Of a stretch of DNA of 64,000 nucleotides, positions 30,721 through 52,667 are shown piece after piece. Source of the stretch: Auricularia sp. M13 (lineage: Eukaryota; Basidiomycota; Agaricomycetes; Auriculariales; Auriculariaceae); contig CM073193.1 of assembly GCA_037042915.1 (NCBI GenBank), forward strand, positions 5,332,001 through 5,396,000, given 5' to 3'. The notes under the pieces are model-generated. The model searched no databases and was not told where the DNA came from. It saw only the letters and a list, made by a program, of their open reading frames with translations. Every line of letters begins with the position of its first letter. Positions within the stretch are counted from its first letter, which is position 1. Both the position numbers and the translations under genes were made by a program.

Positions 30721-30757
<37 letters not shown>

Positions 30758-31552: not shown

Positions 31553-32382
31553 GGGGGGCTTCTTCCGGTACCATGATGGTCCGACTGCGCACAACGCTGA
31601 AGCAATACCATCCCCCCCTCTGTGAAGCCCTCCTATGCTAGGGGAACATTTCAGACAGAAATGGCAGTGTAACAACATATTTAAGATATATTTTACGAAC
31701 CGATGTCAAGCTCGACGATGAGCCGGACGTGAACACGATCCGTACAGCCGTGAGCATTGACGGCTAGTAAGCGCACACGCTACTAGGGCACCTCGTCTTC
31801 CATCGTTCTGGGCGTACGCGCCATGAATCTGTGCCCCCTTACGGCTTACCCGTCGTGGCGTGAAGGAGCGTCATGAGAGGACTTGAGGGCGCGTGGGCTC
31901 TACGCTGGCAAGCACTCGAACCCAGGCACGACGAGAAGATGGTAAGCCGAGAGCAAAAGTCTTAATTGCACGAGCAAGAAGCCCTGTGTGCTAGCAACGA
32001 GCGCGACGACGAGAAAATCAACAAAACGGCCCGTCGGCCCGTCCGGCTCTCACCGACTGTACAGCCGGAACTTTATCGCAAACATTGACAACGCAACCTC
32101 ATCGACTGCAGCGTCGCCTGGAAATCCTGCCCTCGCGACGACATGTAGTAACTACACTGTGAGGGCTGCCATGCCGAACGACAGGTGTGCTAGCACAGCA
32201 GTGCGGGGACAAACCCAATGGACGAGCCACCGCCCTGAATGATAACACCCCTGCCGCTGTCTAAAACGTCACAGCTGCCCGGAGCGCCCTACACAGTCTC
32301 CGGCACCAATTTATAAACACGAGTTGTGAGTACACTACGAACCCACTCCCTCACCCTCACCTAAACGTCCCCAACAACCCGC
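31553..32382 (+). other. Leader of LINE-B before the first zinc-finger gene
   Basis: About 830 bp without a convincing ORF. A TATA-like TTTATAAACA lies at about 32312, some 70 bp before the ATG of the first zinc-finger gene. Confidence 0.35.
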
Positions 32383-33012
32383 ATGGACAGTAGGGAAGAC
32401 CGCACTGTAGAAAGGCTGTCAATCGGCGGCCTTATAAACTTCTGGCAATCGCCAACGCCCCTCCCAGATGGGACGCCCGCGCACGTGGTGGCAGATTATT
32501 ATAGGGGCCTCATCGTCCACCCCTGGCAACTTCCGCGCTCGCCGGCAACCCCCCGCAAAAACGTGGTCGCACCTGACCCACACGACTCAATGTTCGATGC
32601 TCTTTTCGAAGAGGTCATAGATACCTCGCGCCTCGAGGACGAGCCTGCCACCACTACGTCGCCCCCGCTGCCTCACCTCGGCGCGTATGGTGGCACCCAA
32701 ACAATGTCCACTATACCGAGCTCGGAAATCCAGCAGCCAGAACAGACGGCGACGACCAGCGAATCCAACCTGTCCCATGCACGCCAGGCCGGAAACTCCA
32801 AATTTAAATGCTGCGGCTGCAACAAGGAGTTCACGAGACGCCGCAATCGCCAGCTGCACTGGAGCGCCAAACCGCGCTGTGAAATCACCCATCGTGAGGC
32901 GGTTCAAGGCACGACACTCGAGCAGGAATACCACCAGGCGGTTGCAGCTCGCAAATTAAATGCGGAACACAGGAAAATTCGCGAGATGATGTACAAGTTA
33001 TACGGCATATAA
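32383..33012 (+). CDS. Single-zinc-finger protein 1 (209 aa)
   Basis: An intronless open frame from ATG 32383 with a TATA-like sequence about 70 bp upstream. The N-terminal two thirds are Pro/Thr/Ser-rich and acidic (MFDALFEEVIDTSRLEDEP). Near residues 145-168 is one finger, CCGCNKEFTRRRNRQLHW followed by KPRC, fitting C-x2-C-x12-H-x6-C (C2HC type). A helical C-terminus follows (LEQEYHQAVAARKLNAEHRK). The finger and the VQGTT..Y.. stretch after it match the neighbouring gene at 33569-34452, so the two are paralogues. A role in DNA or RNA binding is inferred. It lies within the duplication limits of LINE-B. Confidence 0.6.
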   Translation: MDSREDRTVERLSIGGLINFWQSPTPLPDGTPAHVVADYYRGLIVHPWQLPRSPATPRKNVVAPDPHDSMFDALFEEVIDTSRLEDEPATTTSPPLPHLGAYGGTQTMSTIPSSEIQQPEQTATTSESNLSHARQAGNSKFKCCGCNKEFTRRRNRQLHWSAKPRCEITHREAVQGTTLEQEYHQAVAARKLNAEHRKIREMMYKLYGI

Positions 33013-33568
33013 GCATATTAATTTCCTGTAAATTTTATTCCTTTGTTGTGAGGTTAGCTCCCCAATAAGCACAAGCCGGCGGAGTCAAAATTGGGTCATT
33101 TTCGCCCACATGCCATCATTCCACCGCTCAAGGAATTCTACGATAAGCAACGACAGCTACATACATGTACACGTCAACCACTACGGCGTCCATCAGCAGC
33201 CGGGATAACACTATGCTAAAACCTAACATCCACCTTCTTGAACGGTGCGCGAACGGCGAACGCGATATTGACACTAGCCTAGCGCCAAGTCAACACAATT
33301 TCAAGACTCAAGCCTATCAGCTGGACCTCGAAAATGGGATGCATGACGATAGGATAGTCACAATAGAGCGCCCAGGGTCGACGGCGTACTCCAAGTTACA
33401 GAGTTCGCGGAGGACGAAGCGAAGCTTGATCCGACCCTAATCAATATCAGCCAGGCATCGCCCCAATATATATGGGCGCCTTATCACCTCTTCCAACACG
33501 CTAAGGTCGTAAATCGACCTCGAGGCAAGAATACTTAAGTCAGGCGATAGGCGATCGGACCGCCAGCA
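33013..33568. other. Spacer between the two zinc-finger genes
   Basis: About 560 bp. A TATA-like ATATATATGG at 33464 precedes the second gene by about 105 bp. No other feature supported. Confidence 0.35.
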
Positions 33569-34452
33569 ATGCCATCCCCACAGCAAAGCCCCAGCTCGCA
33601 CGACGCCGGCAGCGTGACTGCGCCTCCCACTTCCACGGACCGCTCAGACCCCGGCGAACTCGCAGGAATGACCACCCATACGCCCGTTCGCCCTAGGTCA
33701 CCTGCGCCCGATGCCATATGGAAATTCCCAATTAAGATCGATTTCTCACAGTACCAAGATTCTCTCTTCGGTACTCCCCTACTACACGCTTAACCGGAAC
33801 GATCTAATGAACATGCAGTAAGATCTGCGCGGCGCGCGCGCGAGGAACTAGTCACCAAGATTAAAGAAGAACCACGACAACCGTCGCTTCCGCCCATCGC
33901 TACTCTGCACGAGGACTCTCCGCCCCCAGCTCCAGCCGTTCCGCCCGCATCTCCTAGCATCCAGCCAGTTCGAAACGCACAGCCGGCAATGGCGGCCCCT
34001 GACATTTCCAGTACGCACTCACATTAGCTCGTCCACCTCATCTTACGTCCTACATAGTGGCCGATCAGGCAGCCAAAAATGACCGCCCAGCATCCAAGAT
34101 CCACCCTGCCACTGGTGCTCAAGCAGTGCAGGGTTCCACCCTAGTCAGTAGGACGCAACGACGCCCCTTGTTTCAGCCTCATGCTCCGACGGCCGCTCGC
34201 GAGATCCCGCAGAAGCCACGTGTATCGCCACGCGCTGGGATTAAGAAATGCTGGGGCGGGTGCAATAGCGTGTTCACGAGGAACGAGAGCCGTGACAAAC
34301 ATTGGACCAGACACCCGGAATGCGAGCAGCAACACGCGCGGGTCGTCCAAGATACGGAGGAAGCGGGGGACTACGCCAAGTCTGTCACTCGGCGCGCGTT
34401 TAAGGTCAGCAAGAAGAGCTCGTCGGCGACAACATCGACGACGCCTGCGTAG
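33569..34452 (+). CDS. Single-zinc-finger protein 2 (262 aa, three exons)
   Basis: Predicted exons 33569-33770, 33819-34010 and 34058-34452, with introns of 48 and 47 nt (GTACTC and GTACGC donors; TGCAG and CATAG acceptors). The phases agree and give 262 residues. The first two exons are Pro/Ser-rich with a short acidic-basic patch (REELVTKIKEEP). Exon 3 has the finger CWGGCNSVFTRNESRDKHW ending HPEC, fitting C-x3-C-x12-H-x6-C, then EQQHARVVQDTEEAGDYAK. It is paralogous to the gene at 32383. Sense-strand introns in a gene inside a LINE are unexpected, because LINE copies are made from RNA. This argues that the segment is either not part of the element or is spared from splicing in the genomic transcript. 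Confidence 0.6.
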
Positions 34453-35123
34453 GACGGAACGGCCTTCTTTCCGCATGTAGATCCATTTTCATTCCACCTC
34501 ACGAGTCTCCGTTTGTTTAGCTACACACGTATCTCACGCCTTGTTTCAAACGTGACTATCACAGCCACAGCTGCACCGCGTGAGGAATGAATGCCTGACA
34601 GCCTGGCGCGTAAACGACGCCTGGAGCTGTCTCTAGAGCGAGCAGCGAGTCACTTGCAATGCGAGAACAGCAGATTGCAGCCGAGCGTCTCTGAATCTTT
34701 GGTCGGAGTTCACCGGAGGCTTTACCCCTCCTTCCGTATCTCCCACCATAGCCGACGTCAGCGCCCACAGTGGCGGCGACCATCGACCAATTCTCACGCC
34801 AACTCGCGCGGCACCCAATGCGTGCATTAGATCACATTATTCGCTGGAGCTCTAGCGCTACAAACAGGCCTCCAACGCCGGGCCAAAATTACCGCAGCAA
34901 GGTACGCGACGAGCGCGGCGCCTCTTTGAAGCTCCAGCATTCATTCCTCTTCATTTCCAGACCCTTAATGTCGATGAGCGCTGACTGTCAGTCAAATTAG
35001 ATCATTTCCGGCGCTTGAGCTGGCGCTTGAGCTGACACTGTCAGCCAGGATACCACTAGCAGCCGCCAGTCGTCCGCTCAGAACCCAGATCCACTGGAAC
35101 GCGCCTATATTAAGCGAACGGCA
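34453..35123. other. Spacer before LINE-B ORF1
   Basis: No gene supported. A small direct repeat (GCTTGAGCTG twice, near 35013 and 35025) is followed by a TATA-like CTATATTAAG at about 35105, only 15-20 bp before the ORF1 ATG. Confidence 0.35.
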
Positions 35124-38100
35124 ATGCGTGAGGACCTACACTTCCCCAGCCGCCAAGTCAACATGGCCCGCGACCAAAACACCAACAGCTTTGCCCCGCT
35201 TGATCCAGACCTCGCGCCTGTGCCCGATGACCAGGACTCCGCACGCAACACGCCGACGACCGTCACCCAAGCCGTCGCCGACGCTCGCACCGAAGTAGGC
35301 CTTCACGGCGACGCCCCCGCCGATGGCCCAGATCCTGCAGCTGCCGTCAGCGATGCACTCCAACCTGTAACCCGCCAAAATCTCCATTTCAGTTCGCCGA
35401 CGGCGTCCGAGATAGACCAGGCTGGCTTTGTTCCAGTCGACCTCTCCGCCGAGCCCGCGCCAGCCAATCCAGACTCACCCTTCGACTTCGTGATGCCCGT
35501 CGACAAGAGAGGCACAATACGCAAGTTCCCCGGCACTCCATCGGACAAAAAGTCTCACACCGCCCGCCGTGACATGAAGGCGGCAGAGCGTCGTAAAATT
35601 GACGGCTCAGACGCTACCGTACGCAGCTACCCACTCCGCAGGCGCGCTAATTCTAATGCACTCCAGTCCCAGGCCATGGATCCCGAGGACCAGGCCGCTA
35701 CCAAGCAGCCGATCGCGCACGAGATCGCAACCGCGGCCAGCACACAGTCCAACACGCCGCAGGCACCGCACTTCGGAACGGTAAGCTCACCCATCCACGA
35801 GCTGCCGCTCTCTCCTCTGACGAGGCCGTGCAGTTCACGAGTGCGCGCAACGTCCTTGCCTACTCGCGCGCGGTAGCCGGCTCGCTGCGATCCCGTGCCT
35901 CCTCCACTACGTCGACGATACGCGCCGTCAACCACATCCCACGTCTCCCGAGCCCGCCGCGCTTCCCGGAGATGAGCACCAGGCTCGAACCACGCGACGC
36001 CTGGCCAACGTTGTCAGACATCAAGGAGCGCCCGACAGTCACCACGACGCTCCCGCCCAGGATCTACGACTCCGACGGCGAAGAAATCTCGCCTACCGAG
36101 TACGCCGGATGGCGAGCACGAGCGCGCATGGCAGAGGGCGAAGCAGGCAGTAGCCGTCTCCCCGATCCCGGCTCGCCCACTCGCACGGCCGCGACTCGAG
36201 AGCAGCGCCGCCAGGAGCGGCAACGCGCGCAGCAGCGTCAAGATGACTTCGACCTGTACGGCGTGAGCGAGGCCCCGCCGCCGCCAGTCTCGCCCACCGA
36301 GCACGCCGGATGGCGAGCACGAGCGCGCATGGCAGAGGGCGAAGCAGGCAGTAGCCGTCACCCCGATCCCGGCTCGCCCACTCGCACAGCCGCGATTCGC
36401 GAGCAGCGCCGCCAGGAGCGGCAACGCGCGCAGCAGCGTCAAGATGACTTCGACCTGTACGGCGTGAGCGAGGCCCCGCCGCCGCCAGTCAAGCAGGAGT
36501 CACCTGCAGAAGATGCCATGTCCGTCTCCGAACACGGGGCCGCGGGCTTCGACGTCGACGACGACGACCTCGACCAGGACCCGGAACCCTCGGATGACGA
36601 CGACGGCGGTGTCGCAATCACGGACCCGCCAGCTACGGAGGAGGAGCGCAAGCGAGCGATATCATACGCCGAGATCTTCGGCCGCACGGGCATCGCACTC
36701 GAGCGCGTCGGCGATATGTCGCCGCTGGACGGTCACCCGCGTAACCACATTTGGAACTTCGTCAACCCGGCGCAGAAGGCCGCGCTGGACAAGATTCCCG
36801 GCAGCAAGCTCATTATAAGGCCCATCGACATCCTCGGTCAGCGGCCGCTCCACAGCATGGACGACGACACGGTCACGGCGGTGGCCAGGAAGAATTTCCT
36901 CAAGGCTATCATCAAGCGCTTCCCCGGCCTGGACCCTCTCTTTACACGCCTTCGCGCTGCGGTGGATGCCGCGGACGACGAACAGGTCCAGGGAATCATC
37001 ATCGTCATCTCGCGCCTGCTGTTGCGGTCATCACGGCCGTCGCAAGCTCTGTCCGCTTGCCCGCGGGTTTTACGCCGCTTCGCCGAGCGTTCGGTCGCTG
37101 CTGTATACAGTCGGCGCACTGTTTATCCTCGGACGGAGACTCGGCCAGGGTTATACGCCTAGAGCTGCTCACCTCGGGATATGATCGACGCGCCGCTCTC
37201 TACCTGTCTAGAGGGTGAGACGACCTCGGCGCATACCCCAATTCGGCTCGGTGGAGGCTTCTTCTCCTCGGACCAGGGTTCGGCAGCTTTCCCCTCGCTG
37301 TATATGTCGGATATGGGCGTTACGGTGCTCGGGACAAGCTCCAGGACCACCTTTGGACCTGGGGCTGACTCGGCGGGTCACCTTGAGCGGCCTCGGAGAG
37401 TCGGGAACGCCTCTATTGGACTTCTCGTGGGTGCGGTACTCCTCGGATGGATAGTAGGCTGGTTATCATCGCCTGATACAAGCTCGGCTACACCCTCGGA
37501 CCCTCGGCCCGTGGCCTCAACAGTGCGGCGCTCTCCCCGTGTACTCGGGAGGTGCCCTCCTTCTCGGTCCGTACCCTCGGTGGATGTGTGTGCGTGTGTA
37601 GCATACCTCGGCACCTTCACCCTATCTCGGACCACGTTCGACTGGAGGTGTGGTATGGTTTTGGCACCATGGGAGACGACGGTGGGTGGACCCTTTAGCT
37701 CCGGGATCACCCTGGACCGGATCAGCGGACCTTGGGGAGGGGTATATAGGTTGTAGGGTGTAGATGCGTGTACCCTAGGTTTGGTCTGGTCAATTGTACC
37801 GCTTGTCCGTTCTTCCTCGTCCCTCTCTCCTCTCTTGGGCGTCGGTCTCGGCGAGTGACGAGCGCTCTGCCGTGACATAAGACCAAACCTTCACTCCCTT
37901 TCGACCGACGCTCATCCCTCTTCTCCTTCCCCACACGGCCGCGGCGTCCTCTCGACTACTATCGCCCGTGTGTCAAAGCCGACGACCTCATCAGGCCGGC
38001 CTCGCCGTCAGCTAGCCGCTGTGCACCGGCCGAGGTCCATTGGCACCCGCATCCTTCTCCCTCGGAGTCGCCACCCACCCTGAGAAGCGAGGCGTACGCT

Positions 38101-41100
38101 GCCAAGGCCCTATCTCCACCCCATCGGCCGCAGCGCATGACCAAGCCCTTGGCACAGCCTCTCCACACGGTCGCGCTGGGATACCCTGATCCCGCCCCGG
38201 CGACCCCTGGTGCAGCACCTCCTTCGCACCTTCTACCCCGGCGAGTAAACCGAGACACTCGCCTACGCCCAAAATCCCACCCCGGTTGTCTGGACTTGCG
38301 CGCTCAAGCCACAGCTGTTGTACCTTCCCCTCTCGCACGCCATCGGCAGATGGGGCCTCGGCCGTGATCCGGATGGACTGGATGCACGCGCCGCAACGCC
38401 CGAGATATGTATACCCTCATCCCGAGGACGTCACGACCCACCGGCCACTGGCTGGACGAACTGTACGATGTCTCACGACCCTCCGAGCTCACGCCGAAGC
38501 TCCGGCAACCAGTAACTTCACTCGCTGCGCGAATCCCAGCCGCCGACGGCGGATCCCACACGTTCCTTATTTCCCTTATCACTTACAGGTCGTGGCGCGG
38601 GGCGCAGTCGGACCCACAGGACACAGTACAAGATTGGAATCCCACGGCCCTCGGACACTGGATTCGGCCGCAGGAGACATACATTGAACGGCACCCCATC
38701 TAGGATGGACGCGCAGGCGGTCGGAACCGAACCCTTGGACCCGCAGGGAGGAGCCCAATTATTCTCACACGGACCCGGACCCTCGCCTCGGTCGCAAGTT
38801 CAAGAAAACTATTTATATTTTGTACACGCGCCCATTGCGACAAGAAAACTACATACAAGCCGGCCGATTCGAGCATCTAGTCCATATCCATCGCCTCCTC
38901 CACCTCCTCCTCCTCCTCCTCCTCCGGACCCGACTCAGGTGGCGCGGATGCGCGCGAGGAGGCCGCCCCAGGTGTCACGGAGGCGCGCGACGACCGAGTA
39001 GCGGTACCCGCTGCGAAGCGAGTGCCCCTGACGCATCGCCGAGCGCAAAGGCGCCGTCGCCGACGGCTGCGCATTCGCGGCCGCACCCCCGGTGACCAGC
39101 GCCCACGCCGCCGCAAACTGGCCCATGAAGTTGGGGTGCAGCGCGGGCGCTGCGACCCCGACCTCACCCGGCGCCTCGATAGGCAGCGCCGGCAAGCTCT
39201 CCTTCGCCGCCCGGGACCGCGACACACGGGGACGATGACGACGCGGGCACCTGGGACGTGACCGACGCGGCGCGGGGAACGAGAAGGCGGCGCGCGCGCC
39301 CGATACTGGCGCCTTGGAGCCCTTGCCCGTCTTGGTCCCGAACCCGAGCGGGGCGCGCAGGTCCTTCCAAGAGCACTTTACCTTCCGACGCGAGCACTCG
39401 AGGCACGCCGCCAGCCCCTGCGCCGGAAGGCAGTCGTCGTCGCGGTCCGCACAACGGCTGCACGGCTGCCCAGTGTCAGATATCACAACCCGCGCAGGAC
39501 GATGGTAACTACTCACCGAGGTCGGGACCCCATGGCGGTCTATCAGACCCTCCGCGAACGCCCGGTCCCACGCATGTCGGCGGTCGCGCAGAGCGGGTTG
39601 CTCCTCCACGCCGGGCGGGGGTGTCCGTGGCCGACGCGGGTGATGCAACACAGAGCCCAACGACGGCGGCGCAGGAGCGGGCGGCATCCGCACAGCAGAC
39701 GATGAGCGCGGCCGACGAGCAGGCGGCGCCGAGGGAACAGACGGAGCGGGCGCCGACGGTCGGGACGAAGACGACGCTGGCGCAGGACGACGCGGCCGAG
39801 GAACAACAACCGACGGCGGCGGCGGCGCGGACCTCTCGCACTCGGCGAACAGCGGGTGCCCGGGCGGGATCTTCAGCGTCGAGCAACGGGTCCTGAACAC
39901 GGCATCCGACGGCAGAGGTGGGAGGCGAAGCGCCAGCGGACGAACTTGCTCGGATAGCGCGGCGGGCACGGACAAAAACGGCGACAGGAGAGCGTCCGCG
40001 GGCGACGAGCAAGCAGCCAGACCGAGAGCAAGAGCACGGGCCGACGGCAACAACGAGAAAAGCAGGCGGCGCTCGACGCCGAACTCCAACTGTCGGTCGC
40101 GGGCCAGGTCACGGTGCGCAGCGGGGATGCCAGGGTCGCCGAGCGCGGCGGCGATGCGGTCCATGGCGTCGGTCAGGACAACGATGCGGGCCTCCATATC
40201 CACGGTCCGGGCGCGCGAGAGCACAAAGTCGGGCAGCACGGGCACCCAGGCGGGTGCTCCGCCACTGCGCTGGTCGTCGCGGGCGTCGTCTGCGCGGTCT
40301 GCAGAGGGCATGGTGGTGGTAAGAGGACAAGAAGCAGATTGACAGGCCGAAGCTTTATGTCCAACCGCGAACTGAATTGCCATTCAGTCCGCGGCGCCCT
40401 CGGCCCGTTGTTTTGTCCTCCCCGCCTTTCGCCTCTCACCCTCGGACGCTCTCTCGGCTCGCGGCTTGAAAGGGGGGTTATGTTGCGGTCATCACGGCCG
40501 TCGCAAGCTCTGTCCGCTTGCCCGCGGGTTTTACGCCGCTTCGCCGAGCGTTCGGTCGCTGCTGTATACAGTCGGCGCACTGTTTATCCTCGGACGGAGA
40601 CTCGGCCAGGGTTATACGCCTAGAGCTGCTCACCTCGGGATATGATCGACGCGCCGCTCTCTACCTGTCTAGAGGGTGAGACGACCTCGGCGCATACCCC
40701 AATTCGGCTCGGTGGAGGCTTCTTCTCCTCGGACCAGGGTTCGGCAGCTTTCCCCTCGCTGTATATGTCGGATATGGGCGTTACGGTGCTCGGGACAAGC
40801 TCCAGGACCACCTTTGGACCTGGGGCTGACTCGGCGGGTCACCTTGAGCGGCCTCGGAGAGTCGGGAACGCCTCTATTGGACTTCTCGTGGGTGCGGTAC
40901 TCCTCGGATGGATAGTAGGCTGGTTATCATCGCCTGATACAAGCTCGGCTACACCCTCGGACCCTCGGCCCGTGGCCTCAACAGTGCGGCGCTCTCCCCG
41001 TGTACTCGGGAGGTGCCCTCCTTCTCGGTCCGTACCCTCGGTGGATGTGTGTGCGTGTGTAGCATACCTCGGCACCTTCACCCTATCTCGGACCACGTTC

Positions 41101-42026
41101 GACTGGAGGTGTGGTATGGTTTTGGCACCATGGGAGACGACGGTGGGTGGACCCTTTAGCTCCGGGATCACCCTGGACCGGATCAGCGGACCTTGGGGAG
41201 GGGTATATAGGTTGTAGGGTGTAGATGCGTGTACCCTAGGTTTGGTCTGGTCAATTGTACCGCTTGTCCGTTCTTCCTCGTCCCTCTCTCCTCTCTTGGG
41301 CGTCGGTCTCGGCGAGTGACGAGCGCTCTGCCGTGACACCTGCCCCCAGAAGTCGTCGCGGCTTTCCTCACGGGGCGCTGGTGGATGCTAGGCAGCCTCC
41401 TCGTAGAGGTACACGAGTACGATCAGCCCGAAGGCTCGGAATTCGTGTACACCATGCGCCAACTCAATGTCCCCGCTGAAGCGGTGCCGCGGCGCCTACG
41501 TCCCGTGTGGCGCCGCAACCCCGAGATGCGCGCCATCGCCGCAGCCCACGCCGCCGAGAAGCACATCTCGACGGAGGAAGCCATGGAGCTCCTGCTCGCA
41601 TCGCTTCACGTCAAGCCGCTCAACGTCGTTCTACCCAAGACTCCGGGCGTGGTCGAGCAGCAGTTTAATATCTACGCAGGTCACTTCTTTAGCCCCGTCC
41701 TACACAGGCGTCTGCGCGACACCGCGGCCTCCATCGTCGTCGACGATCTCCTCCACGGACGAGGCATTGCATGGAGCGGGTGGTACTGCTCGAACTGTCG
41801 AGCTGAGTCGCACCCGGCGGGCAAGTGCGAGATCTGCAACCTGGAGAGCAGGAAGGGCAAGCAGAACGAGAAGCCGAAGAAGTCCCGTCGCAAGGACGAC
41901 GACGACGCCTCGAACCGTGGCCCGAGCGGCGGTCGCGGTCGACGTGATGGCCGAGGCGGCGGTCGCGGCGGCCGCGGAGGACGAGGCAGCCGCGGGGCAC
42001 CACGCGGCCGTAAGCCAGGATACTAA
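35124..42026 (+). CDS. LINE-B ORF1, interrupted by an LTR element
   Basis: The nucleic-acid-binding protein of LINE-B. It starts at ATG 35124 (MREDLHFPSRQVNMARD). Around 35781-35833 the frame changes. A 53-nt GT..AG intron would join the two frames exactly; a one-base frameshift is the alternative. Next come an Arg/Glu-rich 67-residue tandem duplication, an acidic patch (DVDDDDLDQDPEPSDDDD) and a folded region (FGRTGIALERVGDMSPLDGH). The LTR element sits after 37019, and ORF1 coding resumes at 41339 with WWMLGSLLVEVHEYDQ. The C-terminal part carries a zinc knuckle, CSNCRAESHPAGKC (C-x2-C-x4-H-x4-C), as in LINE-A ORF1, then a lysine-rich and a Gly/Arg (RGGRGGRGSRG) tail. The site lies between codons for a continuous sense reading, so the insertion is what splits the gene. 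Confidence 0.7.
36089..36490 (+). repeat. Tandem duplication of 201 bp in LINE-B ORF1
   Basis: Two units, starting at 36089 and 36290, encode 67-residue copies with AGWRARARMAEGEAGSSR, EQRRQERQRAQQRQ and DDFDLYGVSEAPPPPV. They differ at only a few positions and keep the frame. A recent in-frame duplication. Confidence 0.85.
37020..37877 (+). repeat. Left LTR
   Basis: 858 bp, starting TGTTGCGGTCATCACGG and ending GCCGTGACA. It holds a TATA box near 37742, giving short R-U5. It matches the right LTR throughout by eye. Confidence 0.88.
38935..40383 (-). CDS. Antisense open frame inside the LTR element
   Basis: A 482-codon frame on the strand opposite to the apparent orientation of the LTR element. 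The N-terminal half is helical and Ala/Leu-rich (VLTDAMDRIAAALGDPGIPA). The middle is Pro/Ser-rich. Around residue 310 there is a Cys motif, CSRCADRDDDCLPAQG then CLECSRRKVKCSW, resembling the Zn2Cys6-like clusters common in mushroom proteins of unknown role. It could be a captured or element-specific gene. Treated here as part of a fossil element and not interpreted further. Confidence 0.4.
   Translation of the reverse strand: MAIQFAVGHKASACQSASCPLTTTMPSADRADDARDDQRSGGAPAWVPVLPDFVLSRARTVDMEARIVVLTDAMDRIAAALGDPGIPAAHRDLARDRQLEFGVERRLLFSLLPSARALALGLAACSSPADALLSPFLSVPAALSEQVRPLALRLPPLPSDAVFRTRCSTLKIPPGHPLFAECERSAPPPPSVVVPRPRRPAPASSSSRPSAPAPSVPSAPPARRPRSSSAVRMPPAPAPPSLGSVLHHPRRPRTPPPGVEEQPALRDRRHAWDRAFAEGLIDRHGVPTSVSSYHRPARVVISDTGQPCSRCADRDDDCLPAQGLAACLECSRRKVKCSWKDLRAPLGFGTKTGKGSKAPVSGARAAFSFPAPRRSRPRCPRRHRPRVSRSRAAKESLPALPIEAPGEVGVAAPALHPNFMGQFAAAWALVTGGAAANAQPSATAPLRSAMRQGHSLRSGYRYSVVARLRDTWGGLLARIRAT
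40481..41338 (+). repeat. Right LTR
   Basis: 858 bp copy of the left LTR, preceded by the purine tract GAAAGGGGGG and followed by the CCTGC duplication. Confidence 0.88.
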
Positions 42027-42506: not shown

Positions 42507-42555
42507 CGGCGGCCTATTCAGGCCAAGGACGCGCCGTGCGGAGACGCTGAAGTCC
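42507..42555 (+). promoter_or_regulatory. Conserved inter-ORF segment with hairpin, LINE-B
   Basis: GGCCTATTCAGGCC has the same 5-bp stem as in LINE-A, with a T/C difference only in the loop. It is followed by GCGCCGTGCGGAGACGCTGA. A second shared word, GCTGGACATAGT, lies about 50 bp downstream in both elements. The spacer around these words is not conserved. Confidence 0.55.
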
Positions 42556-42635
42556 TCGGGGAACTTCCATGAGCCGGAAAGCATGGAAAGGGATCCGCTG
42601 GACATAGTTCCACCGTTCTGGCCGGGATATGCCAG

Positions 42636-45600
42636 ATGTGCGGGCAGGGTGCACTGGCCCTGCCGGCGAGAAGAGCAGTGCAACCAAGAAGTAACACAGC
42701 AAGATATAACCTTAGGTCGCAAAGCAAACGGTTCGGATCGGAACCCCGTGGTGCTGGAACGGCGGATGATGTGCCCGCTACGTCCGCAGTGGATGAAGGT
42801 GCCGGGGTCAAGGACAGCGGGCTTTCAGGAACACCGGGCTCTGCGAGCCCATGCGCAATTGCGCAAACACGGGCCTCTGCCCATGAGTCTGGCGGATATG
42901 ACCGCCGAGTAGAGAACGCGGAAGGACGCGATGCAGATGCTCACAACAGAATCTCTGCATCGAGAGCCGCTAAGACGCCGGAATTCGCGCATGCCACCTC
43001 TGCAAATTCCACGCGGGATGCACATACGACACCAGATCTCAACGCACGCGCGTCTGCATCTCCTGGCGCAAGAGATGAGTACATCGCGACACCGAGCTCG
43101 TGGCGGGAGTCGCCAGAGACATGTCCGCACGAACAATCAGACGACGAAGTACCAGTCAGTGGCATGCCGAGAGAAGCACATCCAGACCGTGTACATCTCA
43201 TGACGAGCTACAAGCGGACACGAGCGTGTCTCAAATTAGCTTCTGAAAACATGAGAGGCCGGGGCTCCAGATCTATACCTGGGAATAGGAAGTGGAAACG
43301 CATTGCGGAAGATATGCGAAGGCAAAAGATAGGCGTCATGGCCTTGCAGGAGACTCATCTGTCTCAGGAGCACGTGGAGGTCATCCATAAACTGCATGGG
43401 CACATCGTGGTCATCAATTCCCAGCTTCCATCCAACCCCACGGGTGCCGGAGGTGTTGCAATAGTACTGAACAAGTTGGTCACGAATTACCTCTCGGTCA
43501 AATCACAGGTCCTGGTCCCAGGCCGAGCGATTGTTGTAACACTAAATTGGCATCGAGGTGATGACATCTCCATAATGGCAGTATATGCGCCCACGGACAA
43601 GAAAGAGAACGAGGGCTTCTGGTCCGACATCAAGAACAAGATAAAAAGGTCGAAAGGCACCATTCCCAAGCCAGATGTTGTGTTGGGCGACTTTAATATG
43701 GTGGAGGATCCTCTGGATAGATTCCCTGCGCGGCTGACACCCATTGACAACCCGCACTCATTCTATGAGCTCAAAAGATTCCTGTCTCTAACTGACGGAT
43801 GGCGGGAAACTTTCCCAGACAGTGTAGAATGGACATGGAGGAATAGCACCAGATCGGCCATGTCACGCATCGATAGGATCTATCTGACTAGGGCGCTCGC
43901 GCAGGCGAGCCGACGATGGGATATCCAGATGTCAGACCTAACTATCGACGACCATAGTAGGACCACAGTTGAGGTTGTAAACCTGGAAATGCCTGAGATT
44001 GGCCCAGGACGATGGTCTATGCAACCGAACTTGGCAAAAGACAAGAATCTCCTGAGAGCAGTGGACGGGCTAGGCAAGCAGGCATTGCGAGAGATCGCCG
44101 AGGTGAATGCGCAAGGTAGGTCGCAGTCGCGCAATGCTCAGACCATCTGGAAGTCGCTAAAAGACCGGATACGGACCCTGGCTCAGAAAAGGGCGAGGGA
44201 GCTGAATTGCACAAGGAACTCAAAAATCGCCCTGAAAGTAGCAGAGAGGCAGGCGGTGATTGCCACGGTACGAGCAGCGACGTCGCCGGACGATGAAGCC
44301 GAGTCGCGACAGCGACTGAAGACAATCGAGCGCGAGATCCATAGACTACAAGAGTCGACGCATGAGGACATCTTCAAGAATAGGAAGGACCGCGCGTGGC
44401 TGGAGGCTGAGACGATGCACAAATCCTGGTTCCGCTGGGCCAAGGAGAACAAGCCTCGTGACACCTTCGTCTCGTTGCGCAGGCAAGGAGAGGGCCGTCC
44501 AGGATATGCGAACGACTCGCGCACGATGGCAGAGGTCGCCAAAGAGTATCACGACGCCATACAGTACGTTGACTTGGCGGTGGATGCGCAAAGGCGTGAG
44601 GAGGCAACTCTCGAAGTCCTAAAACATGTGGAGCGCAGGGCAGACAATACCGCGAAGTGCGAGCTGCAGGCGTCGATAACCAGGGCGGATGTTATTGAAT
44701 CCATCGCCACGAGTAAGGCCGGCAGCGCAGCGGGAGTTGATGGGCTCGTATACGAACTCTGGAAAGAGCTCGTTCGTCTACACAAAGAATCGGCGCGCGC
44801 GTCTGCCCCGTGGGTGGACATCGCGCAGCTGCTCACGGAGGTTTACACGGACATTGAACGCCATGGTATCTCGGACGGGACGGAATTCTCGATCGGTTGG
44901 CTGTGCCCCCTCTATAAGAAGGGTGATAGGTGTGAGATCTCCAACTATAGGCCAATTACGCTTTTGAATACTGACTACAAAATTTACACTAAAGCGCTGG
45001 CGCTCAAATTGGCACGTGCGGCGCCGAGGCTCATACATGAATCGCAAGCGGGATTTGTACGAGGCCGAAGCATTGCGGAACAGACCAAAATTTCCTCTCT
45101 AATACTGGACTATGCTGAAGCCTACGAAGAGAACGGAATGATAGTTGCCCTCGACCAGGAGAAAGCATACGATAGGATTCGGCATGACTACCTTGGACGC
45201 GTCCTCCGCGAATTCGATCTACCGGAATCCTTTGTGAGAACAATTGAGAGGCTGTATGAAAACGCGCACACGACGGTGATGATTAACGGCTGCATGAGCA
45301 CGAGCTTCGCGGTCTCACGGGGAGTTCGCCAGGGCGACCCTCTGTCGTGCTTATTATTCAACCTAGCCATCGAGCCCTTGCCGGCGATGCTGAGACAGTC
45401 GAATCTGCGCGGCTATGCAATTCCCGGGATGACGCAAAAATTAATAGCGACCCTATATGCTGATGACACCACAGTATACCTGGCAGACGATGACTCCTTC
45501 GACGAGCTCACTCGGATTCTCGAGACGTGGTGCCTGGCATCGGGCGCGAAGTTCAACACACGGAAGACTGAAATAATTCCCCTCGGGACGAAGGAACACC

Positions 45601-48600
45601 GACACCGGCTCTTAGAGACACGACGCATGCATCCAGACGCAGCCCCCCTGCCAGACGGAATACGCATAGCACGAGACGGAGAGCCCACTCGCATACTTGG
45701 TACATGGCCGGGAAATGAGGTCCGAGAGGCGAACGCCTGGTCGGTCATGATCGATCGGATTTCGGCATCGTTGGAGCGGTGGGAGAAGATAAGGCCGTCC
45801 ATGAACGGCCGGAGCATTATATCGCAAACGGTCATTGGAGGCTTCTCACAGTACCTGACGTCGGCACAGGGGATGCCAACGCGTGTAGAGAAGCTCCTGG
45901 ATAAGCTGACGTTGGACTTTGTATGGGGCGGAGGACGCACCCGCCCGGTGAACATGGCGACACTGCGGCGTGCAAAGGACAAAGGCGGTCTGAAGCTATT
46001 CCATGCTCACGAAAGGAATGAAGCCCAGTACATCACATGGGTCGGCGCATTTATGTCCCCCGTGAGCACTCGCCCGATATGGGCGTATATAGCAGGTGCG
46101 ATCTTCCAAGCCGCGACTATAGCGAGAGACAGAGCGCGCATTCCAACAGAACAGCGCGTGAATCCGTTCTACCAGAACTGGAAACCAAACACGCGAAGGC
46201 TGCCCTTTATCCTGCGTCAGATGCTGCGCGTAGCGCGGAAGTACGATTTGATTCTGGACGCCCCGTATGTTCCGCAGGAGCTGAGGGAGCAAATGCAGGT
46301 ATGGTCTCACCCGGCTCTCGGAACTACTGTACTCGCACGACCAAGTGTTCAGTGGCTGGCCGCGTGACATAAGATGCTGGCGAGTTCATGAGTTCAACCA
46401 CGTCTGGGACGCGTGACTGAACTGGGAAATGAGTTCATCAGCCTTGAAACTACTTCCGGGAATGCGGGGGTGCAGGCGGCGTGGTACGTGATGCACGACG
46501 TGGTGCGGCCGCCAATATACACATCGTGGTGCGGCCCCAGGTATAAATGCGCCGCACAGGCCAAACCACCTCAAGCCGACCCAGTCCCTGCTTTCTACCA
46601 CCATGAGCTCGACTGGAAACCCAGTTTTCCGTGCTGAGGAGTGGCTTGGACGCGGCAAGAAGTTTCCGCGTCCTACTCCGCTTCACATTTCTCGCGCTCT
46701 CGATGCTGTTCTCGAGATACCGCACGATGCTGCCATCGATATTCCGCACTCGAAGCAGCCACTTGCCTCCCTCTCTGGCTACCTCCTGCCCAAGCTCGAT
46801 ACCCGGAGTAACGCAACATTTATCTTCTCCGCGGAGCCTGCTCAGATCAATCTACACGAACTGCCGCATCTCCCAGTTCCCGCACATTCTGTTATTATCG
46901 AGCTCGAGCGCGCCGTTGGACAGGCCTGGTTTGACAAGAAGGAGTCCTTCATCTTGGCACACATTTCGAAGAAGCGGCTGCCGCTCTGGTGCATCAACTA
47001 TTGGTTCCACATAACCCCTGCCGTTCGCGCCGCTATGTCTTGCACTGCCGCTCTTGCGTGGTGTGAGTCCATTGGAGCAAAGGACGATGTTGAAACGCTT
47101 CTATGGAGTATTTCATGGGGTGAGCCAATTAGCTGGGCCGACGGAAATGGCTCTGTCGACGCCGGCAACCTTTGCAAGCGCTTACTCGGCGACCGCTGGA
47201 TCTGCGACTCTACCGTTGGCGCAATGCTCAGTCTCATTCAACAAGATCTCTCCACCACTTCTCCCGGCCTCAGAGCACTGATATGTCCGCCGACGTTTGC
47301 CAGCCAGTTGAGGCCAGATCACGGTTTCTTCAACACGTACAGCCAGAAGCGCGCCCCGATGCTCTTTCGTATCGGCACACAGCTGGCTTCAGGGGACCTG
47401 CAGGCACTGTATTACTCGCTTAACGTCGACGGCAACCACTGGGTAGCGATTGGGATAGAGCTTGCAACACAGAGCCTTCTTTTGGCGACTCGCTTGATCG
47501 GCCAGCACCAGCATCTCACCTAGATCTCGTTGAACGGTGGCTGGAAAAGCATGGGATCACGGGCCTCACTCGTAGCGTCATGCCGCATGCCACTCAGGAT
47601 GACGAGCACTCGTGTGGACCTGTGCATATCAATACGATTGCCCATCGAACGTTGCAAGTTCCACTCTGGCAATCAGCGCAGAAGGACACCATACGCGTGC
47701 ATTGGCTCCGTCGCATCATTCAGGCACACCTCACATCACAGATGACCAGACTGCGCCCTTTGCCTGTTGATACCAGTGGTACTCATAGCCAGCCACGGCC
47801 GAGCCCTGCACCACCGGCCCTATCGAAGGACACATCTGCATCGGCACCAGCAGAGGATGGGATCATTGATCTTGATACGCATACCCAGGTCCTCCTCCAC
47901 TTTGACGAAGAGCAAGTCCTTCAAAAGTGCTCATCGACTGACCTAGCTTCCTTAGTACCGCTCGCACCAGTCCCCGATGTGTTACCGCCGACAAAGGCGC
48001 AAACTTCTACCGCTATCGACGAAGCCAATGCTTCCCAGCCCTCAAGAGCCTCCACTTCGATGACCCGTAAATCCATCAACAAGCGCACTGATGCAGCTGT
48101 CATGGGCAGCGGGGTTGGCCTATTCAAGTTTATGAAGCCAGTCAGCCACGACGAATATCTGGCCCAATGTAAACGGACATCGGATGAGGAGCGGGAGCGC
48201 CGAGAGCAGCTGCGGGAGCAGAGGGAAGCGCAGCAGCAGGCAGCTGAGGAGCGTAAACGTGCGCTGGCGAGGATCCGCAAGCAGAACGAGCGCGAACGCG
48301 ATCGCCAACGCGACATTGCAGCTGGCATCCGGAGTGCTTCGACTGGCAAACTTTTGGTGCGCAGCAGCGTGTTTCCTGATGGGATGGGACTCATTATTGC
48401 ATTCAGAAACCCATGGAACTTCGAACAGATGAATCGAGCACAGCTGGCTTTGACGTTGCAGCAGCAAGTCGGCCGCTCCAGCAGCTCAAGTTGATTGAGC
48501 GTTCAGAGAACCCGCGCGCCCGACCAGCAAATCCGACCCAGCTTCGAGTCAGCAACTCAGCAGTCGCAAGTGCACCAACTGGGCAGCTCCATTTCTCTGG

Positions 48601-51600
48601 CAGCAAATCAAGGAAGTGGGCGACGCATGTCGGCCCAAGATGCGACCCAGCGAAATCCGTCGGCTCCTCGTCATGCGCAATCCAACACTGTTTGAGGACC
48701 TCACGACTCAGGTCATTGGCCGCATGATCGATCGACAGGTCAACCCACCAATCTGGAAACCCAAGTGGCTGCAGACAGTCGAACGGAACAGTGTGCGCCC
48801 TGGCGGTCATGTTAACAGGCAAAACATTCTCGTGCGTTATTGCTTTCACTGTTTTGCGCAACTGTGTACTCACACCCAGCAGGCTTCGTACCCATCCCTC
48901 TATTCGCGAATCGTGAAGACGTTCGAATCTTTGCGCACAACCGGCATCAGCCTCTCGATTCGCGACGCTCGTGGTATCATTATCGGGTTCATTGTGCACG
49001 ACCACCCGGAGATCTTTGATAAAAAGAACAGCGCCGGTGAGCACTTCCGTGCGACAGAGCGCTGGGTACAGAAGACCATGGCCAATGACTTGGGCTGGTC
49101 CAAGCGGACAGCAACACGCGCCGCGCAAAAGCTCCCAGAGAACCATGAAGATGCTCGCTTGCACTCGTTCCTGCGGCAGTCCATCAGCATACGCGACTAC
49201 GTGATCGCCGCTGCTCTTCGCGCGAACATAGATCAGACAATGGTGGTCATCCAGGACGGCGAGCAACTGACCTACAATCCACGAGGCGTTAAACAGGTTG
49301 CTGTTCTTGGCGTCGAGGAGAAGCGTGCCTTCACGGTGCTCGTCGGCATCACAGCCGCAGGCGCCCTGCTTCCCTTTCAAGTCATCATGAAGGGAAAATC
49401 AAAGGTCTCGATTCCAACCCCAAGCGCACCGATGTGGCAGGACGCCATGGACCTGGGCTTCCATTTTGCCTGGTCGAACACGGACACGCACTGGAGCACG
49501 CAACTCACCATGCGCCAGTACGTCGAGAAGATTCTCGTACCCCACTTCCAGAGCGTCAAACGCAAGCTGGGTCTTGATGTCGAACAGGAGTGCATTCTCC
49601 AGCTCGACTGTTGGTCGGTCCATCGGTCAGTCGAGTTCCGAGAGTGGATGAAGAAGACGTACCCATGGATCAAGCTCGATTTTGTCCCGGGCGGTTGCAC
49701 AGGAATTTGGCAGCCTTGCGACGTTGGCATTCAGCGCGCTTTGAAGCATGTGATTCGCCGTTGCCAGCATGCGGATGTCGTCGAAGAGACGTACAACGCA
49801 TTGGAAAGCGGCATTGCCCCGGAAGACATCAAGCTCGATACGACCTTGCCTGTGCTTCGTCAGCGCTCCGTTGGGTGGCTGGTGCAGGCTTACCACGAGA
49901 TGAACAACCCGGAAATTGTCAAGAAGGTGTGTATGCTGTTCTGCAATGAATAACGCTGATGACTGTCCAGGCGTTCGAGCTATGCCGCGTCGGCACGTTC
50001 AACCTGTCGCAGGAAAGTCTGACCAGCTATGACGCATTGCGGAAGTTGCGCGACGTACAAGAGAATCAGCCCGACCTCTGGGCCCAGCTCAGCCCTGCTA
50101 CGGCTAGAGTTCCTGACGTCGACGACGATGCAGGCGACAGCGGCCCTGTAGATGCAACCGATAAGCGGCTGGCCGACGTCTTGGAGGCAGCCTACCAGCA
50201 GGCCGATGTTGCCGTTGGCCGGGCTACCAAGACGCCTGTACAGCGTGCTAAGCAGGTGCAGAATCCCGATGTTGCCGATGCGGACCTTTCGGATGACGAT
50301 GCATATGATACGGATTCCGACGGCGGTGAAACTGATATCGAGACCGATGACAAGGGCACCCAAGCAGCACTCAAGCGCAAGCGGGATCCTGAGGACGAGC
50401 AGCGCAGTGACTCACGGCGGCCGAAGCGCAGGTGTGCCGGCAAGCCATCTGGCTGGTATGATGAGGACCGATGGTAAGAGCAGATTCCGGTTGCAGCCGT
50501 CGGTTACACCTGTATTATACGATTTTCCTCGTTTATTCCGGTTCACAATTGGACGAGTTCAGGTCCTAGTCGGACGCGTGACATCACGCTGCCTGAGTTC
50601 AGTTCAGGCGGGACTGTGACGCGTGACCGAACACTTGGTCGTGCGAGTACAGTATGCACATGTCCAGAGCCACTGGATATAGAATACGCTGTCTCAAAAC
50701 TCACCACGCAGTGGTGACCGTAGAGGATCTTGAGGAAATTGCTGAACAAGACGAAGCGGATCATGAGGACGAAGAGGGGTGCGAATGCGAGAACTGCGCG
50801 CAGGACCGACAGGAAGGGTGTAGGCACCCATTCAGATGCAGACAGGTAGCTGAGGACATACTGAGCTCGATCAGGGGTAAATGGAACACCACAGCAGTAG
50901 CCGCGCCAAGAAGTACGGAACTCTGGGACACCTTTGGCGAAGATCGCCAGACTGCGCTACGGGACGGCGAATTAGTGGTCTTTCAGCCGGCCCTCTCGCA
51001 GCCTGAAAGGCTAGAAGACCTCGCGCGGATTTGCGTCAAATCGTTCGCCGTGGGTGCGGCATCCGCGATGGAAATCGTGACGCGGGATGCTGGGACAGCG
51101 GAATTTCACCCGCGGCTCACCGACCCCATCCAGGTCATTGTCTGCGCAGGGATGAGCAACGACAACTCAGAACTAGCGCGAGGAGGCTTCACCATCCATT
51201 TTCCCGACGAAGAGCTCGACGATCACGATCAAGCGTGTAGCGGGACAGGCCAGACGTATCTGCGAAGTCTGGCGCTGGCAATTACGAAGACAGTAGAGCT
51301 GGTACCGGCGCACGCGCCGATGCATGTGATTATGACATCTCGAACGGTCATAGAGTGCCTTACTACCGGCCTGGAGCGACACGAGCGGGCAGGTTGGTTG
51401 GACATCCCAGAAGCGGCGTATGAGTTACGAGTCGCAGTGGCGGCGTTGCGTACACGGGCCGCAGAGACATCCTTCTACCACGTCGATAAGAAACGGCGGC
51501 GCGCCTGGCCGGCAGTGAAGACGACACAGGAACGCGCGACCCTTTTCGCGAAGTATGGCGACGAGAAGGAAGTTGCCACGGAGGTATACGAGAGATTTGA

Positions 51601-52426
51601 CAGGCCAGGTCTGGACGTGGTCGGCATTAGACAGAAGGCTGCGCATCGTGCTATCAGGCTGTCTAAGGAGGCGGAGGAACCCGTGCGGAAGCGGACAGCT
51701 CGCAACCTGGCAAGAGTCAAGGAGGATGTCGCCGCTATCGGGACATTCACTCCGTCCGACCGACAGATATGGGCGGGGGCGCGGAACAGAGACTTGCCCA
51801 GGTCAATCCGAAACTTCCTATGGAAATGCTTGCATGATGCTCACAAGATTGGTTACTACTTTGCGAAAATGCCTGAACCTTGGAAAAGTTACGCCGAATG
51901 CCCCACGTGTCACGTGACTGAGTCTATGGAACACGTTCTCCTACACTGCCCGGACTCCAAACAAGAAACGATATGGAAGTTGGTACGAGTTTTCCTGCTG
52001 CACAAGAAGATTGACGTGGCCATCACTTTCGGCCTCATACTCGGGTGCGCAAACGTGCGGTTGCCAGGACTGCTCAGTGATCGGGATCTCGCGCGAGAGC
52101 GCTCCTTCCGAATAGTTGTAGCGGAATCTGCATTCCTAGCTTGGAAGATAAGATGCGAGAAACGTCTCGGTCATCCAGATGACCCAGACTGGTGCCTGAG
52201 CGCCGAGAATGTGCGGGCACGATGGATTGGAATGATGAAGGAATGTGTGTTACGAGACCATAGAATGGCTCGGCGCGACAAGAAGCGCCCGATGATGCCC
52301 TGGCTCGCGTGGGCAACGTGGCGCGACATGTTAGGTTCCAAAACGTGGAACATAAGCACAACGTTGGAACGACTCGGAGTTTTAGTGGGTACAGGATCCT
52401 CACACGATGCAGCTGGAATAGGATGA
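42636..52426 (+). CDS. LINE-B ORF2: endonuclease, reverse transcriptase, RNase H-like; interrupted
   Basis: The polymerase gene of LINE-B, split by a DNA transposon at 46327-50652. The open frame runs from 42636 (GTG; the true start is uncertain). The endonuclease (about residues 195-440) has LKLASENMRGRG, MALQETHLS, VVLGDFNMVEDP, SRIDRIYLT and IDDHSRT. The reverse transcriptase (about 690-980) has SAAGVDGLVYELW, NYRPITLLNTDYK, VALDQEKAYDRI, GVRQGDPLSCLLF and LYADDTTVYL. Coding resumes at 50655 in the same frame, with one TA of the duplication removed. It continues through the cysteine cluster CECENCAQDRQEGC ending HPFRC, an RNase H-like region (IVCAGMSND, MHVIMTSRTVIECL) and the terminal finger CPTCHVTESMEHVLLHCP. 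No other interruption is seen. Confidence 0.88.
46603..48494 (+). CDS. Ulp1-like cysteine protease gene of the DNA transposon
   Basis: The first frame, 46603-47523 (MSSTGNPVFRAEEWLGRGKK), reaches the catalytic His region NVDGNHWVAIGIE. Coding then continues in another frame with FGDSLDRPAPASHLDLVERW and the catalytic Cys region QDDEHSCGPVHINTI, so His, Asp (GDSL) and Cys of a C48 protease are all present. The switch near 47460-47480 is a one-base frameshift or a sequence error; no good intron signals were found. The C-terminal half is a charged coiled coil (ERERREQLREQREAQQQA) preceded by GLFKFMKPVSHDEYLAQC, as in related transposon proteins of mushrooms. It may process SUMO-like conjugates or element proteins; that is inference. 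Confidence 0.7.
48640..49953 (+). CDS. DDE_1-type transposase
   Basis: About 437 residues from ATG 48640 (MRPSEIRRLLVMRNPTLFED); the frame is open from GTG 48616 and may be spliced to upstream coding. The N-terminal 180 residues are helical, with TERWVQKTMANDLGWSKRTA suggesting a helix-turn-helix-like part. The catalytic core has IDQTMVVIQDGEQLTYN (first acid region), CILQLDCWSVHRS (second Asp) and GCTGIWQPCDVGIQRALKH (third Asp), the DDE/D order of the DDE_1 superfamily. It cuts and rejoins the element ends; TA duplications fit this family. A following frame, 49959-50477, starting FELCRVGTFNLSQESL, has an acidic and basic tail ending RRPKRRCAGKPSGWYD and is probably its C-terminus after an intron or frame change. 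Confidence 0.8.
   Translation: MRPSEIRRLLVMRNPTLFEDLTTQVIGRMIDRQVNPPIWKPKWLQTVERNSVRPGGHVNRQNILVRYCFHCFAQLCTHTQQASYPSLYSRIVKTFESLRTTGISLSIRDARGIIIGFIVHDHPEIFDKKNSAGEHFRATERWVQKTMANDLGWSKRTATRAAQKLPENHEDARLHSFLRQSISIRDYVIAAALRANIDQTMVVIQDGEQLTYNPRGVKQVAVLGVEEKRAFTVLVGITAAGALLPFQVIMKGKSKVSIPTPSAPMWQDAMDLGFHFAWSNTDTHWSTQLTMRQYVEKILVPHFQSVKRKLGLDVEQECILQLDCWSVHRSVEFREWMKKTYPWIKLDFVPGGCTGIWQPCDVGIQRALKHVIRRCQHADVVEETYNALESGIAPEDIKLDTTLPVLRQRSVGWLVQAYHEMNNPEIVKKVCMLFCNE
49959..50477 (+). CDS. C-terminal extension of the DDE transposase
   Basis: A 172-codon frame directly after the transposase stop, in another frame. It is acidic (DADLSDDDAYDTDSDGGETD) and ends in a nuclear-localisation-like KRKRDPEDEQ and RRPKRRC. 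Joining to the transposase needs a short intron or a frame change around 49945-49975. Confidence 0.5.
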   Translation: MTVQAFELCRVGTFNLSQESLTSYDALRKLRDVQENQPDLWAQLSPATARVPDVDDDAGDSGPVDATDKRLADVLEAAYQQADVAVGRATKTPVQRAKQVQNPDVADADLSDDDAYDTDSDGGETDIETDDKGTQAALKRKRDPEDEQRSDSRRPKRRCAGKPSGWYDEDRW

Positions 52427-52605
52427 TCAGCCAGGATTCAAGCCCCACACTGCCTCACTGGCGTGTTAAGTGCTATTTCTCCGAGGGGAGGTGTCTGTCT
52501 TCTTTCGAGGGCGGCCGTAACGGCTACCCCAACCAGCATGCGTGGCAACACGCATACGAAGGTACCCTGGGTTACTATGTGATTGCAGGATCTTTGACGC
52601 TCCAC

Positions 52606-52609
52606 AAAA

Positions 52610-52637
<28 letters not shown>
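52606..52637 (+). repeat. A-run and (TA)n tail of LINE-B
   Basis: Eight A followed by alternating AT, running directly into the right duplication copy. It marks the 3' end of LINE-B. The AT repeat merges with the TATA of the duplication, so the exact boundary can move by a few bases. Confidence 0.75.
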
Positions 52638-52646
<9 letters not shown>

Positions 52647-52652: not shown

Positions 52653-52667
52653 TTTGCCCGCAAGGGC

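Follow-up and report, generated by a model that had tools for sequence, protein, structure and literature searches.

A long LINE lineage with accessory zinc-finger genes and candidate sense introns in Auricularia sp. M13

Organization and limits of LINE-B

We analyzed a stretch of 64,000 nucleotides from the basidiomycete Auricularia sp. M13 (assembly GCA_037042915.1, contig CM073193.1, positions 5,332,001 to 5,396,000 of the forward strand), hereafter the window. It contains a long interspersed nuclear element (LINE), LINE-B, whose window copy (W, positions 31553-52637) is organized as a 5' end, zinc-finger gene 1, zinc-finger gene 2, open reading frame 1 (ORF1), ORF2, and an A/TA tail (Table 1). 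W is now broken, with ORF1 split by a long terminal repeat (LTR) element and ORF2 by a DNA transposon. The window also holds another LINE, LINE-A (23122-30755), and eight relatives of LINE-B were read elsewhere in the genome (C5, C1b, C1c, C1d, C1e, C1f, C4, and C4b). LINE-B is classified as a LINE by the reverse transcriptase and APE-like endonuclease of ORF2 (Pfam matches RVT_1, 1.3e-36, and Exo_endo_phos, 3.3e-9), target-site duplications (TSDs) of variable length, an A-rich tail, the lack of LTRs of its own, and a 5'-truncated copy. Internal stops were absent in 30 of the 37 matches of a genome search with ORF2.

An earlier reading of the window letters (the original prediction) had placed the ends of the element at a repeated 15-bp word, TATATAAAGGCACCT, and estimated about 12.4 kb of LINE after subtraction of the nested insertions; both proposals were borne out. 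The word occurs in the window only at 31538-31552 and 52638-52652, in none of 100 shuffles, and five times in the whole genome (52 Mb, 14 contigs). Its three other loci, on contigs C2, C8, and C12, are empty sites at which the word is single and carries no insert, and their sequences are 98.8-100% identical to window positions 31301-31552 (from 31303 for C8) and 52638-53000. Since the word is single at the three empty sites and present on both sides of W, the whole of 31553-52637, zinc-finger genes included, is inserted DNA and represents one LINE insertion. Subtracting the nested insertions with their duplications gives 21085 - 4324 - 4328 = 12433 bp. The TSD of W may be shorter than 15 bp, as the TATATA part of the word touches the (TA)n tail and makes the limit slightly ambiguous.

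The insertion lies in a repeat that spans about 31106 to 53187 and, once the LINE is subtracted, measures about 982 bp. This repeat is a DNA transposon with the terminal inverted repeat CACTGTGAAACC, which we take to be CACTA-like. By eye, 3-bp duplications flank all four copies of this target repeat (GAT at W).

The zinc-finger genes move with the LINE

A genome search with positions 31553-37019 retrieved two loci that match parts of the zinc-finger segment and of ORF1; at C1:348934 (C1e) the match is short, and at three loci it covers the first 66 bases only. C5 (C5:2776001-2796000, minus strand) carries both finger genes, ORF1, and ORF2 inside a 19-bp duplication and measures 12926 bp with its tail. 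C1b (C1:6709001 on; 10.8 kb, 15-bp duplication GAAACTGTCTTGCTA) has finger gene 2, ORF1, and ORF2; it begins at about 33017 in window terms, upstream of finger gene 2, and is an ordinary 5' truncation whose unit includes that gene. The segment therefore travels with ORF1 and ORF2, as had been proposed, with both genes in C5 and gene 2 in C1b lying inside the duplications of these copies. A shorter LINE starting near 35.0 kb, which would have left the finger genes outside, is contradicted, since none of the seven relatives with a resolved 5' region starts there and C1b is truncated at about 33.02 kb.

Among the remaining relatives, C1d (11049 bp), C4 (11046 bp), and C1e (11397 bp) are more distant from W but full length, with their own duplications and, according to a motif scan, one finger each; C1c (11041 bp) has a broken finger frame. 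C1f belongs to a family of near-identical copies, also with a finger, and its 5' end was not located in the region read. Own duplications were found in five of the six relatives tested (C5, C1d, C4, C1e, and C1b), and in these copies, W, and LINE-A they are 14-19 bp long (that of C1b being read at two fixed places). C5, C1d, C1c, C4, and C1e have a homologous start, and C4b has the same 5' motif. The 5'-end pattern CTTCTTCCNGNACCANNATG occurs five times in the genome (reversed control, 0), and each time a finger gene and a LINE reverse transcriptase follow downstream in the same orientation; four of these sites are the copies from which the pattern was derived (W, C1c, C1d, and C4), and only C10:2460290 is independent.

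The association extends to the genome as a whole. A finger place was found within 15 kb upstream on the same strand for 50 of 62 B-like reverse transcriptase rows (51 within 25 kb) versus 0 of 15 A-like rows, B-like meaning at least 66% identity to the LINE-B reverse transcriptase and A-like 60% or less. These are the 77 rows kept of 120, after dropping 7 secondary pieces and 36 rows of at most 34% identity; some may be two halves of one element, and the repeat listings are lower bounds. The 86 finger places were merged from three protein queries (82 of the 86 rows of the main search plus four from the others; one split-match piece, three rows with E above 0.02, and two weak rows with E above 0.01 were dropped). 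In 2000 rotations of the finger places, the mean count was 0.84 and the largest 18, compared with the 50 observed; small contig shifts keep true pairs, and four contig ends were set at the last match. LINE-B is thus a lineage, represented here by dozens of copies, that as a rule carries one or more accessory C2HC zinc-finger genes (two in W). The accessory gene is a lineage-wide feature here, and introns, treated below, extend to ORF1. Members of the finger gene family occur outside the LINE as well.

Table 1. Positions of LINE-B components, nested insertions, and target repeat in the window
Feature	Positions	Strand	Remarks
Left half of target repeat	31106-31552	+	98.9-99.1% identity to uninterrupted C2, C8, C12 copies
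5' TSD copy, TATATAAAGGCACCT	31538-31552	+	Word search, empty-site comparison
LINE-B 5' end	31553-31624	+	GGGGGGCTTCTTCCGG...ACCATGATG...AAGCAATACCA; alike in seven aligned copies
TATA-like box before zinc-finger gene 1	32310-32317	+	Also in C5
Zinc-finger gene 1	32383-33012	+	209 aa, one predicted C2HC finger; intronless in W, one intron in C5
Zinc-finger gene 2	33569-34452	+	262 aa as spliced model; exons 33569-33770, 33819-34010, 34058-34452
Finger gene 2 intron 1	33771-33818	+	48 bp, GT-AG
Finger gene 2 intron 2	34011-34057	+	47 bp, GT-AG; avoids in-frame stop
TATATTAA box upstream of ORF1	35106-35113	+	Also in C5 and C1b
ORF1, first part	35163-37019	+	Introns 35619-35666 and 35781-35833
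ORF1 intron 1	35619-35666	+	48 bp in W
ORF1 intron 2	35781-35833	+	53 bp
Nested LTR element	37020-41338	+	LTRs 37020-37877, 40481-41338; TSD CCTGC
ORF1, last part	41339-42026	+	Resumes after LTR element; terminal CCHC-like knuckle (by eye)
RNA hairpin upstream of ORF2	42506-42547	+	Conserved, also in LINE-A
ORF2, first part	42573-46324	+	APE-type endonuclease and reverse transcriptase
Nested TA-flanked DNA transposon	46327-50652	+	DDE_1 transposase, 1.2e-10; Ulp1-like second ORF
ORF2, last part	50655-52426	+	zf-RVT-like C-terminus, below Pfam cut-off
LINE-B tail, A(8)(TA)n	52606-52637	+	Repeat analysis
3' TSD copy, TATATAAAGGCACCT	52638-52652	+	Word search, empty-site comparison
Right half of target repeat	52653-53187	+	Comparison with uninterrupted copies

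The accessory zinc-finger proteins

The nine fingers that we aligned share the pattern C-x2/3-C-x12-H-x6-C, with HW and P invariant. Because Pfam C2H2 profiles match them weakly (best 0.0043, in four of the nine), we predict a divergent C2HC finger. A structural model of the finger (mean predicted local distance difference test score, pLDDT, of 77) consists of a beta-hairpin plus helices, and since the best of its 18 Foldseek matches has an E value of 4.5, the C2HC assignment is kept at the sequence level. The ratios of nonsynonymous to synonymous change (dN/dS) between W and C5 are low in the finger genes (0.25 in gene 1 and 0.23 in gene 2) and 0.18 in ORF1, as obtained by simple counting on the spliced models with no significance test. 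Both of the zinc-finger genes originally predicted exist as ORFs, and gene 2 is readable by way of two GT-AG introns, the second of which is one of eight possible choices.

Introns in the sense strand

Copying through RNA is normally expected to erase introns located in the sense strand. Sense introns had been proposed for one of the finger genes; they are found in gene 2, and beyond that we found two candidate sense introns in ORF1 and one in finger gene 1 of C5. ORF1 intron 1 is a GT-AG intron of 46-53 bp located at the same place and in phase 0 in all five copies compared (W, C5, C1b, C1e, and C4b). In W, C1b, C1e, and C4b, intron 1 of finger gene 2 lies at one position, eight residues past an IDF motif, and in one phase; it is exactly missing in C5. 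W and C1b have ORF1 intron 2, which C5, C1e, and C4b exactly lack, and the finger gene 1 intron (46 bp, GTAAGT) of C5 is exactly missing in W. Intron 2 of finger gene 2 is less well supported (C1e has one at a similar distance).

Splicing of these introns is predicted from the genomic sequence. Removal of the 46-53-bp introns lengthens the longest ORF1 frame from 454 to 629 amino acids in W, from 366 to 594 in C5, from 352 to 531 in C1b, and from 426 to 535 in C1e. In C1b, ORF1 spans three frames that are joined only by two intron removals, and in C4 and C1d a GT-AG removal is needed near the end of ORF1 (by eye).

Synonymous sites are saturated, or nearly so, between copies that share ORF1 intron 1 and finger gene 2 intron 1. 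Because position and phase have stayed fixed at such a divergence, these introns appear to have survived many rounds of copying, and the template would therefore usually retain them. Since different single introns are exactly absent in related copies, the data also suggest that the template is occasionally a partly spliced RNA. As the outgroups have intron 1 of finger gene 2, its absence from C5 is most simply explained by loss.

TATA-like boxes are shared upstream of finger gene 1 (W and C5), ORF1 (W, C5, and C1b), and finger gene 2 (C1e and C4b, with a different one in W); none was found in C4 and none comparably placed in C1d. The scan used three simple motifs compared by eye, with no promoter statistics, and suggests that separate mRNAs may be produced from internal promoters.

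A model for LINE-B replication and its alternatives

Very probably, LINE-B is a LINE lineage with an accessory finger gene whose template is usually an intron-retaining RNA and occasionally a partly spliced one. In this model, a full-length RNA keeping most introns would serve as the template for target-primed reverse transcription, while the finger proteins and the ORF1 protein would be made from short mRNAs (driven by the internal TATA promoters) or from spliced long RNA. Occasional copying of partly spliced RNAs would then delete single introns exactly. The weakest step is the role of the finger protein; the likeliest one, that of a small protein that binds nucleic acids and regulates expression or silencing of the element itself, has in our view somewhat less than an even chance. 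On balance unlikely is a fuller, retrovirus-like programme, in which unspliced genomic RNA would be the template, regulated splicing and internal promoters would give the mRNAs for the ORF1 protein and the finger regulator, and the latter would balance expression against copying or counter host silencing.

Several observations weigh against this reading of LINE-B. Twelve of the 62 B-like rows lack a finger gene in the 15 kb upstream, and for 32 of the 86 finger places the 25 kb downstream contain no LINE reverse transcriptase (several E values are weak there); the LINE-less places include a separate repeat with several near-identical copies. C1c has no recognizable TSD. As for the introns, the ORF1 frame of C4b gains very little from their removal (578 to 582 amino acids), an alternative frame being open, and the homologous protein is still recovered; in W, removing intron 2 alone gives a longer ORF1 (645 amino acids) than removing both (629). 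Removal of intron 1 of finger gene 2 shortens the longest frame in C1b (309 to 292) and C1e (248 to 236) and leaves it unchanged in W (149), so the case for this intron comes from its position, its phase, and the intronless C5. Finally, the trees conflict on the closest pair among W, C5, and C1b: that of ORF1 groups W with C5 (89/91), and that of ORF2 groups C5 with C1b (85/91; the C1c row of this tree has 16 stops, probably from a frameshift). Because of this conflict, either loss or gain would account for ORF1 intron 2 and the finger gene 1 intron.

It is conceivable that the introns go back to recent, repeated insertions, instead of having been kept through copying and lost by way of spliced RNA. 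ORF1 intron 2 occurs in only two of the five copies, as such gains would produce, and the uncertain order of W, C5, and C1b in the trees sets no polarity for the finger gene 1 intron. However, ORF1 intron 1 and finger gene 2 intron 1 are old, being shared in position and phase across nearly saturated copies, and we regard recent gain as improbable. A second possibility, very unlikely in our view, is that intron-bearing copies derive from antisense or DNA-like intermediates and not from unspliced sense RNA, as was proposed for intron retention in Penelope-like elements in the accessible part of one report (PMC3846280). Against it, the 3' poly(A) tails, variable duplications, and 5' truncation of LINE-B fit target-primed copying of sense RNA, and no GIY-YIG domain was reported among the ORF2 domain matches.

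More doubtful still is that the introns are not spliced at all, the changes of frame in ORF1 being programmed frameshifts or decay and the GT-AG borders due to chance. The frame of W ORF1 is indeed open with or without intron 1, finger gene 2 intron 1 can be read through in C1b and C4b, and the longest-frame tests in C4b ORF1 and in finger gene 2 of W, C1b, and C1e are unfavorable to splicing. Chance would nevertheless have to place GT-AG borders at the same position and phase, around sequences of different lengths, in five of five copies for ORF1 intron 1 and in four of five for finger gene 2 intron 1 (with the fifth exactly lacking it), and the three frames of C1b ORF1 would be left apart. 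The idea that the finger genes are host genes, or part of another element, trapped by chance between two words beside a shorter LINE starting at about 35 kb could draw on the finger genes of the same family found with no LINE reverse transcriptase nearby, but it is refuted by the three empty sites, whose flanks join at TATATAAAGGCACCT, and by the segment of C5 and gene 2 of C1b inside their own duplications, to which the finger gene upstream of 50 of the 62 B-like rows can be added.

Comparison with other retroelements

LINE-A resembles LINE-B in its related ORF2 (57% in the reverse transcriptase), its similar 5' start, and the same hairpin before ORF2; it has its own duplication, GATACTAGTAGCTG. 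It differs in its length (7.6 kb) and in its ORF1 candidate, a single frame of 506 amino acids, and no zinc-finger segment was found in it. The likeness of the two 5' ends that had been predicted is real but short, consisting of a G-run followed by ...CCGGACCATCATG....

Human L1 is about 6 kb long. LINE-B, in contrast, has 11-13 kb, one or two zinc-finger genes before ORF1, and candidate introns in ORF1 and the finger genes. Its ORF2 aligned with human L1 ORF2p (PDB 9k6g/8uw3) over the endonuclease and reverse transcriptase (residues 240-1142, E 5.7e-45), and the PDB comparison favored L1 over R2. Poly(A) tails, variable duplications, and 5' truncation are likewise shared with LINE-1-type elements.

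Spliced human L1 copies, known as SpIREs, exist and are generally dead ends, as far as the available part of their description tells (PMC5860796). They resemble LINE-B in that a copied spliced LINE RNA leaves an exact gap of the size of the intron, which is what C5 displays, lacking precisely finger gene 2 intron 1 inside an insertion with a 19-bp duplication. The difference, judging from the same portion of that paper (PMC5860796), is that splicing harms L1, whereas in LINE-B it seems to be needed to read ORF1 in several copies and the introns persist. Penelope-like elements also keep introns, and a 2013 paper states, in the part accessible, that they stand apart from every other type of retrotransposon because they disperse intron-containing genes (PMC3846280); Terminons are described, in a source likewise seen in part, as giant retroelements with accessory genes (PMC6431247). 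According to these partial sources, both differ from LINE-B in having another class of reverse transcriptase, a GIY-YIG endonuclease or none, and terminal repeats or telomere attachment, and LINE-B, judged by its APE-like endonuclease and poly(A) tails, does not belong with them.

The titles and abstracts of the best-ranked literature matches, a scope that excludes Repbase and subscription papers, mention no LINE that has conserved introns or accessory zinc-finger genes. With introns at fixed positions and exact differences of single introns between its copies, the LINE-B lineage makes the separation of template RNA and mRNA testable, and the conserved accessory gene would add a probable regulatory protein to a class of elements usually limited to ORF1 and ORF2.

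Nested insertions and minor features

The two LTRs of the nested element are 858 bp each and 100% identical. No reverse transcriptase was detected in this element; its main ORF (482 amino acids, minus strand) has no Pfam match and a cysteine pattern, seen by eye, that we presume to be like that of a fungal Zn2Cys6 finger. In the nested DNA transposon, the similarity of the second ORF to Ulp1-type proteases is weak (0.018, under the curated Pfam cut-off). C5 and C1b are uninterrupted at both insertion sites. The only long direct repeats within W are the nested LTRs and a tandem duplication in ORF1 (36087-36490; 201 bp, in frame, 97%), the latter not seen in C5 or C1b. A structure prediction of ORF1 from four copies was discarded (mean pLDDT 39.6).

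The hairpin upstream of ORF2 might serve its translation; at three of its 13 pairs both bases have changed in some sequence, and one sequence has a single broken pair. A search of Rfam gave no match at E 1 in 31500-35000, a stretch thus devoid of known 5' ribozymes, and the consensus fold of seven 5' ends is weak (4 pairs). The tail of W, A(8)(TA)n, differs from the plain A tails of the six relatives whose 3' ends were read, and its TA run may come from slippage at the TATATA target.

The LINE-less repeat mentioned above, of at least 2.3 kb, was read in three copies (L040, L041, and L042) that are 98.7-99.6% identical and carry a related zinc-finger gene. No LINE reverse transcriptase lies within reach of these three copies, and a DNA comparison of the repeat (E 1e-5) with the LINE loci read here, the window, C1f, and C4b gave no match. 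A fourth finger match of identical score lies at C1:3432194, and the 10 kb read at one of the copies contains an M43 peptidase ORF. Two A-like copies (C1:2276127 and C2:3808518) have their reverse transcriptase in open frames of 2538 and 2755 codons, compared with the roughly 1800 common in others. Lastly, C5 carries a 483-bp inverted-repeat element just upstream of zinc-finger gene 2 (3843-4325 of the joined, reversed C5 locus).

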